A stretch of 64,000 nt of DNA from Aminobacterium mobile DSM 12262 (lineage in GTDB: Bacteria; Synergistota; Synergistia; Synergistales; Aminobacteriaceae), in NCBI RefSeq assembly GCF_000526395.1, contig NZ_JAFZ01000001.1:806001-870000 (forward strand). Reading direction: 5' to 3'. Shown piece by piece: positions 57,394 through 64,000 of this stretch. Positions within the stretch are counted from its first letter, which is position 1. Every line of letters starts with the position of its first letter. Under the pieces are notes generated by a model. It did not search any database. It saw only the letters and a list, made by a program, of their open reading frames with translations, and was not told the origin of the DNA. A program made the translations under genes and the position numbers.

Positions 57394-57577
57394 TCGGGCA
57401 GATATAGGCCCGAGCTTCAGATCCAACATCAAATTGAATCACAGGCCGAATGTAGATTCGAATTGCTTAAACCGCCTGAACTGCTTGAACGCCGGAAATA
57501 TTTCAAGCTCACGGAGAGTTTCTCGTGGCTGCATTGTCTCAGTTACGTGGCAATTCATTAGAAAGAGGGGAAGTTTT

Positions 57578-58483
57578 GTGGCAGACCAGACACTTCTAAA
57601 CGACACTCGTGATTTTTGGTGGACGTGTGTAGACCGGTGCGTCATTCGTGATAAAGACCTTTCTCCTATCGACAAAACCGTTTACGCCGTTCTTTGCAGC
57701 TTTGCGTCTACGTATGAGAGAAAATGTTTTCCTAAAGTGGCAACAATTGCCGCATATGCGAGGTGTTCCGTGCGCTCCACTCAAGAGAGCTTAAAACGAC
57801 TGCAATCGAAAAAATATTTGAGGAGAACTCCTCGATACAAAAATAAGCGTCAGCTCTCTTCGGAATATACACTCATTGGCCACCGAGCGAGAAATGCATC
57901 TCCTACAAGGGCGCATGACGTACACCAGGGGGGTGCGCCAAAGGCAGTGGCGGAACTAGAATCACTTGAACTAGATACTTCTCTTTCAGAGAAGAGAGAA
58001 AAATTCTCTCCAGAAGCGCGTCCTTCAGGTGGCTTGTACGGAACATCAAACGCAAAATCCCAACCAACCGCTTCCACGCAATATATTCCTAAAGCGACAG
58101 TGGAACTGGAAGAAGTTCCTCAAGTAATGCGTGCAACGGTGGAGTATTTCCTACTCAAAACGGGAAGGAAGGAAATTACCCCACAAGAACTTTCCGCACT
58201 CAAAGTCCTCGAGAAAATTCATGTACCCGCACGTGTGAACCATGAGATCGCAAGGGCGGTGGCACGATATGAAAAGCTGAACCGTCCGCTCCACAGCCTG
58301 ACTCTTGAATACATTTACGAAAGCTTGAAATATCAAACATCGAGGCGAAAGGGCGAGTCTGAAACTCAAGAGGTTTCCACATCTGAAGATCCATATGAAA
58401 AGCAACGATCGGCCGACTTGAAAGAGTGGGAGGCCAGGCGGCAGGAGGCCTTGATTGAAAAATACGGAGGTGAGTTGCCATGA
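57578..58483 (+). CDS. HTH-domain replication-organiser-like protein
   Basis: A 301-residue protein starting at GTG 57578 behind AGAGGGGAAG; an upstream in-frame ATG at 57434 is inside the repeat leader. Residues 25-95 are a winged helix-turn-helix of the HTH_36 type (LSPIDKTVYAVLCSFAS, then FPKVATIAAYARCSVRSTQESLKRLQSKKYLRR). The middle is polar and probably disordered, and the C-terminal 90 residues are helical, ending in a charged WEARRQEALIEKYGG. Phage and plasmid initiators or replisome organisers with this head are commonly followed by a DnaC-like loader, as here (ATGA overlap). Binding to the upstream iterons is inferred. Confidence 0.75.
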   Translation: MADQTLLNDTRDFWWTCVDRCVIRDKDLSPIDKTVYAVLCSFASTYERKCFPKVATIAAYARCSVRSTQESLKRLQSKKYLRRTPRYKNKRQLSSEYTLIGHRARNASPTRAHDVHQGGAPKAVAELESLELDTSLSEKREKFSPEARPSGGLYGTSNAKSQPTASTQYIPKATVELEEVPQVMRATVEYFLLKTGRKEITPQELSALKVLEKIHVPARVNHEIARAVARYEKLNRPLHSLTLEYIYESLKYQTSRRKGESETQEVSTSEDPYEKQRSADLKEWEARRQEALIEKYGGELP

Positions 58484-59331
58484 CAAAACGAGTTCTCTCG
58501 TATGTGCGGCGACTTTTCAAAAATCCATCTATAACGAAATCGGATTTATATGGCTCCATGGGAGATTTCATACAGGCTGAAGAGCAGCAACGGTTCTGTG
58601 CCAAATGTCCGGGAATCACATTGTGTAAATATAAGGGGCTCCGATGGTCGATTTCAGTGAAAAAAATCTTTAGACGGCAGATTATTGTAGCTGAGGTGGG
58701 GAATTGTGTGAATCGCCAGAGGGAAAAACGGCAGCGAGAAACGGAACAACTCATTCGGGCGAGCAAGATCCCAGAGGCCATGAAACGCTGCACTTTCGGT
58801 ACGTTCATAACGGCCGGAGACCCCATGATCAGGACGGCGAAGGGGTTGGCAATGGCGAGTGTGGAAGACGGCGCCTCCTTAATTCTGGGTGGAGGAACTG
58901 GCGTGGGGAAGACCCATCTTGCCATCGCTATGGTGCAAAAAACGGTCAGTCGAGGGAAGGCGGCTCTATTCGTTCCGGTGGTGGATTTGCTCGACGAAAT
59001 TCGGTCAGGCTACAATGAAGGAACCGCAGACGCGATTCAACAGGTGGTGAAGGATGCGGATTGCGTGGCTCTCGACGATTTGGGGGCGCAGCGGTCTACA
59101 AGCTGGGTAAGCGAGAGGCTTTTTTCTGTTATCGACGCGCGATACAGGTCGGGGAAACAGACGATCATTACCACGAATGCGTGCTCTATGTCGCAGCTTG
59201 AGAAGATGTTGGGGGAAAGAGGGCAGCGGATTGTTTCACGGTTGGCAGAGATGGCGCAGCCTCTGTTTATCAAGGCCCGGGATTTCAGAACACGCAAAAA
59301 TGTGCAGCAGCGCCTTCCTGTTGGGAAGTAG
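58480..59331 (+). CDS. DnaC/DnaI-like helicase loader ATPase
   Basis: A 283-residue AAA+ protein. An N-terminal zinc-type cysteine set, C40, C43, C49 and C76, recalls DnaI. Walker A is GGGTGVGKTH (137-146), Walker B CVALDDLGAQ, sensor 1 IITTNAC and an arginine-rich RIVSRLAEMAQ near the end. It most likely loads the host replicative helicase at the origin recognised by the preceding protein. The IstB transposase helper is a related alternative, but no transposase is adjacent. The start overlaps the upstream stop (ATGA). Confidence 0.85.
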   Translation: MTKRVLSYVRRLFKNPSITKSDLYGSMGDFIQAEEQQRFCAKCPGITLCKYKGLRWSISVKKIFRRQIIVAEVGNCVNRQREKRQRETEQLIRASKIPEAMKRCTFGTFITAGDPMIRTAKGLAMASVEDGASLILGGGTGVGKTHLAIAMVQKTVSRGKAALFVPVVDLLDEIRSGYNEGTADAIQQVVKDADCVALDDLGAQRSTSWVSERLFSVIDARYRSGKQTIITTNACSMSQLEKMLGERGQRIVSRLAEMAQPLFIKARDFRTRKNVQQRLPVGK

Positions 59332-59350: not shown

Positions 59351-59784
59351 TCATGCAATGGTGGGGGCGGGGTGTGAAAATGGCGTTTCAGCTTTAATAT
59401 CTATACCGAGTTCTTGCGCAATTGCAACTTGAAGCATCAAACTATAATTTTTGATTCCCGCTTCTTTGGCGGCACGATCCATCCATGCGGGTATTGCAAG
59501 CGTCTTTTTTACGCTGTACTCTTTTATAGACGCGCGAATGAGTGGCATCCAAACCTCGATAAGAACATAAGCAGCGCCCTTTCTTTTAATAGATGATGGA
59601 GTGGGGATTGGTTCCCCATCGACTTCCATGCCGTAGATATGTAGCCCCAACGCCTCTTTTGCGCATTTGATAGCATCTGTTTCGTCTTTACTTACCGTAA
59701 CGCACCCAGGCAAATCGGGGGATGTTACTCCCACTTGATTTTCTTCATAGTGAAAAGTGCTGAGTAAATATAGCGGTCTGCCAT
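59351..59784 (-). pseudogene. hicB: HicB antitoxin gene, frameshifted near its start
   Basis: The native start appears to be ATG 59784 with AGAGGAGG upstream and opens MADRYIYSALF, a typical HicB beginning. After 19 codons this frame stops. The HicB sequence continues one frame back as HYEENQVGVTSPDLPGCV, so a single T (A on plus) seems missing from the four-base run at 59753-59756. The remaining open frame starts at GTG 59734 (127 residues). It has the HicB core DLPGCVTVSKDETDAIKCAKEALG and a C-terminal ribbon-helix-helix (VKKTLAIPAWMDRAAKEAGIKN). A sequencing error in the run is an alternative. Confidence 0.75.
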
Positions 59785-60601: not shown

Positions 60602-63600
60602 ATGGATTCTGATCTTTCGTTTATTACCAATGAAAAAGATCAAAGCCTTAAAGAACGATTTAAAATAGTGATTAAAAGCACAGATTTCTTTGATTGTTTA
60701 GTTGGCTACTTTTATTCAAGTGGTTTCTACGCAATTTATCCTTCCTTGGAAAGTACCCAGAAAATAAGAATCCTTATTGGCATCAACACAAATAGGCGAA
60801 CTTTCGACATGATGGAGGAAGCCAATAAATCAACGCAGCAACTGTTTGATTTCTCACATGCTGAAACCAAGCAGGAATTTGAAAATCTTGTACAAAAAGA
60901 AATGGACGGATGTCAAGATAACAGGAAGGTAGAAGAGGGGGTACAGAAATTTATAGAATGGATTAAAATAGGCAAACTTGAGATTCGGGCCTATCCATCA
61001 CAAAACATTCATGCCAAACTCTATATAATGACATTTAAAGAAGACGATAGAGATACGGGACGTGTAATTACAGGATCAAGCAACTTTACTCAAGCAGGCT
61101 TAGTTGATAATTTAGAATTTAACGTAGAGCTCAAAAACAGAAGTGATTATGATTTTGCGAAAAAGAAGTTTGACCAATTATGGGCTGATTCTGTTGATGT
61201 TAACGAAAAATATGTTCAAACTGTTCAAAATAAAACGTGGCTGACTAAAAACATTACACCCTATCAGTTGTATCTAAAATTTCTTTATGAATACTTCAAA
61301 GATGAACTTAATCAAACTGACGAAGTCTTTGTAAAGTATTTACCAGAAGGCTTTAAAAGACTCGAATACCAAGAACAAGCTGTTTTGAACGCCAAGAAGA
61401 TTTTGCTGCAATATGGAGGCGTTTTTATCTCCGATGTCGTAGGTCTTGGTAAAACATATATTTCTGCCATGCTTGCAGGTCAATTAGATGGCAGAACTCT
61501 TGTTATTGCTCCCCCTGTACTTATAGAAAAATCCAACCCTGGGTCGTGGCCCAATGTCTTTTCTGATTTTAAGGTATCTGCCGATTATGAATCTATAGGG
61601 AAGCTGGATGATTTACTTCAAAGAGGCACTGATAAATATACAAATATTATTATTGATGAGGCTCATCGCTTTAGAACTGAAGCAACGGTAACGTATGAAA
61701 AACTTGCAGAAATTTGTCGGGGGAAAAGAGTTATTTTAGTTACAGCAACCCCTTACAATAACTCTCCTAAGGATATACTCAGCCTGCTCAAACTATTCCA
61801 GAAAACGAAAAAAAGCACGATTCCTAATGTACCTGATTTAGAAGCGTTCTTTACTAATCTTGATAAAAAACTAAAAAAATTGGATCGGAAAGAAGATTAT
61901 GAAGAATATATAGAAACAGTAAAAGAGAATGCTCGGGAAATACGAGACAAAGTTTTGAAGTATCTCATGGTTCGTCGTACACGAACAGAAATAGTAAATT
62001 ACTTCCCTCGGGATATAGAACAACAAGGGCTGAAATTCCCTAAAGTGTCCAAGCCGGAGCCTCTCTTTTATGAACTTGACGAGAAAGAAGACAAAGTCTT
62101 TAATGAAACTATAAATCTAATTGCCAATCAATTTAGATACGCTCGATATATGCCCTTACTCTATTACAAAGGTAAACTTAGTCAGCTAGAGAAGCAATCT
62201 CAGCGTAATATGGGACGTTTTATGAAAATTCTCCTCGTTAAGCGTTTGGAAAGCAGTTTTTTTGCCTTTAGAAATACTGGGCAGAGATTTCTTCATTCCT
62301 ATGAGATGTTCTTGAAGGAATTAAACAATGGTCATGTCTATGTCAGTAAGAAACATATAAATAAAATTTTTGAACTATTAGAAAATGATGATGATGTAGC
62401 TATCCAAAAATTGATTGATGAAGGCAAGGCAGATGGGTATGACAGTAACGATTTTAGTGAGCAACTTAAAGTAGATTTGGAACATGATCGCGATATTCTT
62501 ATAAGAATTAAAAAATTGTGGGAACAGATAGATAGAGATCCGAAGCTTTTAAAATTCAAAGAAGAATTATCAACAAATAAAGTTTTGAAAAAAAACCATC
62601 TTATCATTTTCACAGAATCTAAAGAAACAGCTAACTATCTGTATGAAAATCTTAATGAAGAATATTCTGGAGAAATTCTTTTATTTACCGGTGATTCTGG
62701 GGAAAACGTTCGAGATAAAGTAATAGCGAATTTTGACGCTCGTGCCCGTGTTAGAAAAGATGATTATCGTATATTGATATCGACAGAGGTCCTCTCTGAG
62801 GGTGTCAATTTACATAGGTCGAACGTTGTTATTAATTATGATATTCCTTGGAATCCAACGCGAATGATGCAGAGAGTTGGCCGAATTAATAGGGTTGATA
62901 CCCCCTTTAACTCTATTTACACTTTTAATTTTTTCCCTACAACGCAATCTAACGACCAAATCAAGCTCAAAGAAGCTGCGGAATGCAAGATTAATGCTTT
63001 TTTGACACTTCTTGGCGGTGATGCAGAACTTTTAACTGAAGGTGAGCCTGTAGGATCCCATGAGTTGTTTGACCGCTTAACCTCGTCGAAAACTTTGGAG
63101 GGCGAAGAGGAAAATGAAGAAAGTGAACTTAAATATCTGCAAGTTATTCGCGAAATCAGAGAAGGATCCCCTGACCTTTTTGAAAAGATAAAGCACCTGC
63201 CTAAAAAAGCTCGCACTGCAAAGCGAAATGCCGAATTTGATAGATCTCTTATAACTTATTTTTGTCGAGGAAAATTGCAGAAATTTTTTGTTTCTCGAGA
63301 TAAAGAAGAAGCTAGGGAATTAGATTTTATGGCAGCAGCTAAATTGTTAGAAAGCACTCCAGATGAAAAAAAGAAGGATATTCCACGTGATTTTTATGAT
63401 TTGCTAGATAAAAACAAAACTGCTTTTGTTGCAGCTACAACAGATGAGGTTGTTAAGCCACAGAGCAGGGGAAGAGATAATTCAACTAAAATTATTCAAG
63501 TATTAAAAGCGACGTTGCATAGTACTCAAAGATTTACTGAAGATCAAGAAGCTTACATTGCAAGAATAATTACACAATTAGCAGAAGGTGGCTTACCTAA

Positions 63601-63790
63601 ACAAACTATAAAAAATACATGGAAGGCATTACAGAATCTGAAAAACGAAAGCCTAAATCCATTTAAAGTTTTGGCGGTACTTCAGTCTAATATTTCTGAA
63701 CGATTGCTTGAGAGTCATTATGCAGAAGATAAATCTACTGTTCTGGGGAAACGGGAAGTAATATTGTCTTTATACTTGGCAGGTGAATAA
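60602..63790 (+). CDS. PLD-nuclease/SNF2-helicase fusion protein (candidate defence protein)
   Basis: A 1062-residue two-part enzyme. Residues 1-200 are a phospholipase-D-like domain with HAKLY at 137-141 and GSSNFTQAGL at 158-167, the half-motif of PLD-family nucleases. Residues 250-800 are a SNF2-type SF2 motor: GLGKT (281-285), DEAH (352-355), TATPYNNSP, LIFTESKETANYL, STEVLSEGVNLHRSNVVINYD and the arginine fingers in QRVGRINR. The C-terminal 230 residues are helical and unassigned. DNA here is clearly more AT-rich than sbcDC. The following gene looks like a type IIG methylase-nuclease, so the pair probably defends against phage or plasmids. DISARM separates related domains into different proteins. 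Confidence 0.9.
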   Translation: MDSDLSFITNEKDQSLKERFKIVIKSTDFFDCLVGYFYSSGFYAIYPSLESTQKIRILIGINTNRRTFDMMEEANKSTQQLFDFSHAETKQEFENLVQKEMDGCQDNRKVEEGVQKFIEWIKIGKLEIRAYPSQNIHAKLYIMTFKEDDRDTGRVITGSSNFTQAGLVDNLEFNVELKNRSDYDFAKKKFDQLWADSVDVNEKYVQTVQNKTWLTKNITPYQLYLKFLYEYFKDELNQTDEVFVKYLPEGFKRLEYQEQAVLNAKKILLQYGGVFISDVVGLGKTYISAMLAGQLDGRTLVIAPPVLIEKSNPGSWPNVFSDFKVSADYESIGKLDDLLQRGTDKYTNIIIDEAHRFRTEATVTYEKLAEICRGKRVILVTATPYNNSPKDILSLLKLFQKTKKSTIPNVPDLEAFFTNLDKKLKKLDRKEDYEEYIETVKENAREIRDKVLKYLMVRRTRTEIVNYFPRDIEQQGLKFPKVSKPEPLFYELDEKEDKVFNETINLIANQFRYARYMPLLYYKGKLSQLEKQSQRNMGRFMKILLVKRLESSFFAFRNTGQRFLHSYEMFLKELNNGHVYVSKKHINKIFELLENDDDVAIQKLIDEGKADGYDSNDFSEQLKVDLEHDRDILIRIKKLWEQIDRDPKLLKFKEELSTNKVLKKNHLIIFTESKETANYLYENLNEEYSGEILLFTGDSGENVRDKVIANFDARARVRKDDYRILISTEVLSEGVNLHRSNVVINYDIPWNPTRMMQRVGRINRVDTPFNSIYTFNFFPTTQSNDQIKLKEAAECKINAFLTLLGGDAELLTEGEPVGSHELFDRLTSSKTLEGEEENEESELKYLQVIREIREGSPDLFEKIKHLPKKARTAKRNAEFDRSLITYFCRGKLQKFFVSRDKEEARELDFMAAAKLLESTPDEKKKDIPRDFYDLLDKNKTAFVAATTDEVVKPQSRGRDNSTKIIQVLKATLHSTQRFTEDQEAYIARIITQLAEGGLPKQTIKNTWKALQNLKNESLNPFKVLAVLQSNISERLLESHYAEDKSTVLGKREVILSLYLAGE

Positions 63791-63792
63791 AC

Positions 63793-64000
63793 GTGAATAA
63801 CGAACAAGCTCGGGAAATTCTAAAAACAACGTTTGAAAATGCGTTTAACAAAGATAATTTTATAGTTTTTATCAAAAATCTTCTAAATAGAATAGAGGAA
63901 GCTCCTTTTACTTATCAAGGTAATTATATTCCTGACGCCTATAAACAATACATCAAAAAATTTGAACGAATAGGCAAATATAGTGATAGAAAACATAGTA
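63793..64000 (+). CDS. Start of a probable type IIG restriction-methylase (3'-truncated by the window)
   Basis: Only 69 residues are visible, from GTG 63793, two bases after the helicase stop, with AGGTGA upstream. The opening (EQAREILKTTFENAFN, FIKNLLNRIEE, then YIPDAYKQYIKKFERIGKYSD) resembles, from memory, the N-terminal nuclease region of large Eco57I-like class IIG enzymes that combine endonuclease, adenine methyltransferase and target recognition. No catalytic motif is yet reached, so this is a family guess. Tight spacing indicates an operon with the PLD-helicase. Confidence 0.5.
   Translation, partial: MNNEQAREILKTTFENAFNKDNFIVFIKNLLNRIEEAPFTYQGNYIPDAYKQYIKKFERIGKYSDRKHS

Follow-up and report, generated by a model that had tools for sequence, protein, structure and literature searches.

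A PLD nuclease-SNF2 helicase fusion and its partner N6-adenine methylase from Aminobacterium mobile: a predicted two-gene restriction-modification system

The window, i.e., the whole 64,000-nucleotide stretch analyzed here (positions 806001 to 870000 of contig C1 in the 2.1-Mb genome of Aminobacterium mobile DSM 12262, referred to below as G000), stops inside a two-gene unit (Table 1). The first gene codes for a fusion of a PLD-like nuclease domain with an SNF2 motor. The second one, read as an open reading frame (ORF) with a GTG start codon at 63793, begins 2 bp past the stop codon of the first, leaving the intergenic slot between the two empty in this locus. The earlier note on this DNA had taken the second gene for one of the Eco57I type, and its complete ORF of 1,134 codons does match the Eco57I family in Pfam (1.7e-39).

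The block that holds the pair has a GC content of 31 to 37%, compared with 47 to 52% in the flanks. The methylase end overlaps by 4 bp the gene for a 240-aa protein (L002:9195-9917), which contains a short CKSD tandem repeat and has no match in Pfam, NCBIfam, PADLOC, or PHROGs. It is followed by a gene for an AIG2/GGACT protein and then by a Gabija pair (L002:10534-13826, corresponding to G000 C1:874533-877825) that lies in the same low-GC block, ∼4.7 kb past the methylase start, and encodes GajA (625 aa; PADLOC, 495 bits) and GajB (477 aa; 342 bits). The AT-rich setting suggested earlier is confirmed, with Gabija as a defense neighbor. The GC content rises again, to 47 to 50%, at what we take, by sequence recognition, to be the DUF488 and flavodiiron genes. 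A second Aminobacterium genome with the pair has the same two neighbor genes, at 76% DNA identity, and a different gene in place of Gabija downstream. A promoter scan returned 51 candidates, with 50 expected from shuffling.

Table 1. Coordinates of the two-gene unit and of spare target recognition domains (TRDs) in distant relatives; positions without a prefix are those of the window
Feature	Position	Strand	Evidence
PLD-SNF2 protein, 1,062 aa, predicted restriction protein (translocase and nuclease)	60602..63790	+	Pfam, AlphaFold2 model, structural neighbors
PLD (HKD-type) nuclease domain at the N terminus, with a single half site (~residues 1-200)	60602..61201	+	PLDc_2 and RE_NgoFVII; H137/K139/N161/E172 invariant
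HAKLY (HxK) motif, residues 137-141	61010..61024	+	H, K, Y invariant in 97/97 listed homologues
GSSNFT motif, residues 158-163	61073..61090	+	G158, N161 in 97/97, S160 in 96/97 listed homologues
Walker A GLGKT, residues 281-285	61442..61456	+	DVVGLGK 278-284 invariant in 97/97 listed homologues
DEAH box (motif II), residues 352-355	61655..61666	+	D, E, H invariant in 97/97 listed homologues
Second RecA lobe (Helicase_C), residues 655-765	62564..62896	+	Pfam 1.4e-20
Helicase C-terminal region, residues 820-1062	63059..63787	+	Conserved, without Pfam family, alpha/beta in model
N6-adenine methylase, 1,134 aa, including a specificity domain	63793..64000, on to ~67197 (G000 C1:869793-873197; L002:5794-9198)	+	Eco57I, TaqI_C, PADLOC
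Spare TRD, L018	11838-15503		Inverted repeat 1,236 nt, 97%
Spare TRD, L109	13615-16082		Inverted repeat 291 nt, 98%; serine recombinase adjoining
Spare TRD, L119	13652-16078		Inverted repeat 304 nt, 88%; serine recombinase adjoining
Spare TRD, L113	13714-16282		Inverted repeat ~100 nt, 97-100%; serine recombinase (by sequence reading)
Spare TRD, L185	7572-10008		Inverted repeat 272 nt, 71-75%; serine recombinase adjoining

In the PLD-SNF2 protein, Pfam recognizes PLDc_2 (residues 50-194, 3.5e-10) and RE_NgoFVII (116-205, 7e-8), both of the PLD type, followed by SNF2-rel_dom (327-491) and Helicase_C (655-765). This agrees with the earlier description of a PLD half site and an SNF2 motor on a single polypeptide, and the HAKLY, GSSNFT, GLGKT, and DEAH motifs all lie where that description placed them. 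The PLD residues His137, Lys139, Asn161, and Glu172, as well as those of Walker A and the DEAH box, are invariant in all 97 listed helicase sequences. Each chain carries one PLD half site. The PLD domains of SauUSI and NgoAVII dimerize to form a single composite site (PMC7913695, PMC4267653) and, by the precedent of these two and of BfiI, dimerization is plausible here as well. The AlphaFold2 model of the protein (pLDDT 83) has RapA as its best structural neighbor and SauUSI (7clg) at rank 10; the TM-scores are low, presumably because the domain arrangement differs. The lack of a recognized domain in the C-terminal part, also pointed out in the earlier note, extends over ∼240 residues without a Pfam match. 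This region is nevertheless conserved, with a mean identity of 57% in 695 homologue pairs (whole helicases average 67%), and is mostly modelled with confidence.

The methylase matches TaqI_C (3.8e-12) in addition to Eco57I, contains an NPPY motif at residues 720-723 that is retained in 72 of its 74 homologues, and aligns over its full length with the PADLOC model REase_MTase_IIG (PDLC03596; 1,879 bits). The earlier description of this protein as “IIG-like” is correct as regards an N6-adenine methylase with an NPPY motif and a specificity domain but not as regards a conserved PD-(D/E)XK nuclease. In the alignment of the 74 homologues, no conserved D...(D/E)xK dyad is present in the N-terminal domain: Asp71 is kept in 61 sequences, the Glu and Lys positions vary, and no (D/E)xK follows Asp71 in register. 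Accordingly, “IIG-like” is best read as a family name rather than as a demonstrated nuclease. Judging from this non-conservation, the N-terminal nuclease of the methylase may have been lost; in the distant relative L020, an LDLVVYEVK stretch could be its remnant. The AlphaFold2 model of the homologue L025 resembles CamA, M.BseCI, BrxX, and MmeI, of which MmeI, a nuclease-methylase, aligns along most of the model length. The N-terminal domain of the methylase is predicted to have its strands and helices in an order compatible with a nuclease-like core. Given that the methylase has no conserved nuclease dyad, the PLD domain is probably the nuclease of the pair.

The helicase and the methylase are encoded in the same 5 of the 188 genomes of the phylum (G000, G030, G049, G052, and G170) and are adjacent in all five; in one Aminobacterium congener, neither gene finds a match at an E value of 1e-60. 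A scan of bacterial and archaeal genomes gave at least 80 helicase loci with 52 to 80% identity. Going by their record titles, the matches listed with this architecture span more than 25 phyla and include archaea, although many of these records are metagenome-assembled genomes, so that single phylum assignments may be wrong. Counted over loci with at least 2 kb of downstream sequence, the methylase is the next gene downstream on the same strand in 84 of the 87 listed loci, distant ones included, and in all 73 testable close homologue loci among the matches listed, with just a remnant of it in one (L046). The conservation of the gene pair in many genomes that the earlier note called for is thus seen: the neighbor is a methylase, and close helicases without this partner were not found among these loci. 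The three loci of 87 with another arrangement belong to relatives with 26 to 34% identity, in which the methylase is sometimes upstream, extra genes are sometimes present, or the methylase was not found (L112 and L123); the family in its wider sense is thus more diverse. Helicase and methylase genes lie within 30 bp of each other in 52 of the 90 listed loci. In the reverse search, whose contigs mostly duplicate those of the helicase scan, methylases with the same N-terminal half adjoin the helicase wherever the contig extends far enough upstream, except at L141. Decayed copies lie at L141:8779-12486, where the methylase and a C-terminal remnant of the helicase are left, and at L046:11186-12729, where the helicase is kept with only a C-terminal remnant of the methylase, which lies behind a Bro-N gene.

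As the pairing recurs in more than 70 loci, it is not a matter of chance. The protein distance matrices of helicases and methylases are correlated (r=0.91, 69 loci; none of 2,000 permutations reaches this value), with shared ancestry contributing to the correlation. Flanking genes gave scattered PADLOC matches, any one family appearing in at most 3 of 110, and these are not counted here as evidence of defense enrichment. Across the matches listed, which cover over 25 phyla of bacteria and archaea, the two genes are almost always found together. The pair may well be mobile, with this distribution, its position in a low-GC block with Gabija, and its absence from one congener all counted as support.

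Conservation is uneven along the methylase. In 695 locus pairs with a mean helicase identity of 67%, methylase identity is 61 to 70% in residues 1-440 and 63% in residues 520-660, and it drops to 34% in residues 700-830 and to 24% in the TRD. Similarly, the two Aminobacterium methylases are 67 to 92% identical in each 60-residue block, except for residues 961-1080, where identity is 30 to 33%. By these comparisons, the recognition domain is evidently swapped between loci. Five distant relatives carry a second, inverted TRD-bearing fragment directly downstream, linked to the first by inverted repeats (Table 1). In four of them, the two copies are almost identical as far as the TRD, beyond which identity drops to 15 to 45%; the copy in L113 is not cleanly alignable. 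Such invertible spare TRDs point to phase-variable specificity in these relatives. Swapped or invertible TRDs are the pattern expected if a single, exchangeable recognition domain aims the system. In the window's own locus, the downstream genes that were read contain no spare TRD.

The same gene order has been reported in the Lactococcus plasmid pLd8 (orf33/orf34/orf35) and its homologue pJM1F, in which a PLD+SNF2 helicase is followed by a methylase with TaqI_C that is listed as “type IIG” in REBASE (PMC6098607). In 2018, the pLd8 authors inferred that the PLD domain replaces the missing nuclease and likened the arrangement to DISARM (PMC6098607). The idea is therefore not new, since such a pair and the inference drawn from it were already in print as a remark; no paper treating the two-gene family as a system was found in the open-licence literature, where the related reports deal mainly with BREX-related, Dnd, and YprA systems. 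Compared with the window pair, the PLD-SNF2 protein of pJM1F is ∼26% identical and its methylase is 33 to 35% identical over three quarters of the length; a further difference lies in the inverted TRD and the invertase of pJM1F.

Restriction by a PLD nuclease combined with an SF2 motor has precedents in SauUSI (PMC7913695) and in CglI and NgoAVII (PMC4267653). The Type IV enzyme SauUSI similarly combines the PLD nuclease and the SF2 motor in a single chain, acting as a PLD dimer with ATP-driven translocation (PMC7913695). However, SauUSI contains an SRA target domain of its own, and the DNA it cuts is methylated, whereas the motor chain of the window pair has no recognized TRD and comes nearly always with a methylase gene. 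CglI and NgoAVII are ATP-dependent restriction-modification systems with a methylase gene and a PLD nuclease dimer powered by an SF2 ATPase (PMC4267653), but their PLD and motor are separate proteins, the site is read by a B3 domain, and methylation is left to a separate C5 enzyme. The division of labor in Type III systems (Mod/Res, as in EcoP15I) is found here, too: two genes, one for a methylase with the TRD and the other for a protein with motor and nuclease. The window pair is nevertheless no Type III member, as it has a PLD domain instead of the PD-(D/E)XK of Res, an SNF2-like motor, and an Eco57I/TaqI-type methylase with NPPY in place of a DPPY-type Mod. Its layout is closer to that of a Type III Mod and Res built of other parts than to a compact DISARM, the system with which the earlier note compared it.

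Taken together, the two genes very probably form an ATP-dependent restriction-modification system that works like Type III against unmarked (phage) DNA. Both enzymes with their motifs, the near-obligatory linkage, and the variable recognition domain can be read from the sequences; from these we infer site-specific methylation, complex formation, translocation, PLD dimerization, cutting, and protection against phage, as follows. The methylase would read a short target via its C-terminal TRD and methylate adenine in the host DNA. At an unmodified target, it would recruit or license the PLD-SNF2 protein, probably through its conserved N-terminal ∼440 residues. The SNF2 motor would then travel along the duplex, driven by ATP, until two PLD half sites meet and cut both strands. 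The core of the earlier interpretation, a defense pair, is thus supported, with the corrections given above.

A self-sufficient Type IIG methylase, with the PLD-SNF2 protein being an independent defense or repair helicase that is adjacent by chance, is an improbable alternative. It is in line with the PADLOC score of 1,879 bits, the presence of methylase and TRD in one chain (Eco57I and TaqI_C), which is a Type IIG trait, the nuclease-compatible fold order predicted for the N-terminal domain, and the alignment of the model with most of MmeI. However, a Type IIG enzyme would carry its nuclease in the same chain, where the 74 homologues show, by the measure of conservation, no such dyad, and a chance neighborhood is at odds with the 73 of 73 listed close loci and with the r value of 0.91. 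The pair might also work mainly as an epigenetic switch, a phase-variable methylase with weak or no restriction. Invertible TRD cassettes and recombinases in several distant relatives fit this view, but all 97 listed helicases keep the residues of the nuclease and the ATPase unchanged, which would not persist without use, and the window locus lacks a spare TRD in the downstream genes read, which leaves this option with hardly any likelihood.

The pair is also unlikely to be a reduced form of DISARM, BREX, or a BREX-related (BR) Type 2 system that blocks phage by means other than sequence-specific restriction-modification and with the help of further host or accessory proteins. The appeal of this view lies in weak matches to the DrmD, DrmMI, PglX, and BrxHI/II models and in the Type 2 BR systems, where an HKD nuclease at the N terminus of a Swi2/Snf2 helicase, a trait also present here, is combined with an N6-adenine methylase and an RM-like mode has been proposed (PMC12839542). 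Those systems are centered, however, on a DUF499 ATPase and include DUF3780, whereas the window pair is complete alone, and in several genomes the pair stands by itself; DUF499 (PF04465) is absent from all five genomes of the phylum with the pair, and DUF3780 had no Pfam match among the window's neighbors. Class 1 DISARM shares an SNF2 helicase (DrmD), a PLD protein (DrmC), and the DrmMI methylase as parts, but these are separate proteins and are joined by DrmA and DrmB, neither of which is among the scanned neighbors in G000 or evident on reading the ORFs that flank the pair in G030. The helicase is not a DrmD ortholog by score, reaching 138 bits with NF038317, the curated cut-off being 610. 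Likewise, the methylase reaches 85 bits with the PglX models of BREX, against a cut-off of 500, and PglZ and BrxC-like genes are missing near the pair in G000, with none evident in G030.

If the two-gene restriction-modification reading is true, many “Type IIG” proteins provide the recognition half in an ATP-dependent system of two proteins, and defense counts mislabel such methylases and overlook the cutter. The pair would then form a bridge between Type III systems, SauUSI, and the BREX-related HKD helicases, and its one conserved motor with freely varying recognition domains would make for a simple test design.

In 36 of the 90 listed loci with a measured distance, the helicase and methylase genes are over 400 bp apart; one of these loci (L060) owes this to a split helicase frame. 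Among the 38 intervening proteins scanned, 15 contain SLFN_AlbA_2 and 6 contain Bro-N; YhcG/DUF1016, HepT-like, NTP transferase, and Fic families are represented by two proteins each, and AbiEii, NYN, DUF3800, DUF559, DUF4062, and TumE by one each. No literature was found on such accessory genes in Type I loci. It is conceivable, as a tentative generalization, that the family makes up a widespread, undescribed class of ATP-dependent restriction-modification systems, in which one universal PLD-SNF2 cutter is given new targets through exchange or inversion of the TRD of its partner methylase and the intergenic space serves as a slot where interchangeable back-up genes can dock (Schlafen-like AlbA_2, Bro-N, Fic, MNT-HepT, YhcG, and AbiEii).

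Several other genes surround the pair. A 433-aa MBL-fold protein (L002:14572-15873) with weak similarity to LmuA and Avs1a is encoded on the minus strand at the right-hand margin of the low-GC block. Upstream of the pair, a HicB-like antitoxin is encoded on the minus strand at 59351-59734, and the adjacent bases resemble a HicA toxin gene. The region 57434-59331 encodes a primosomal-type protein and a DnaC-like helicase loader (PHROG, 188 bits), possibly a remnant of a phage or another element; the same primosomal and DnaC-like genes are present in the congener G031 (L136:17312-19001).
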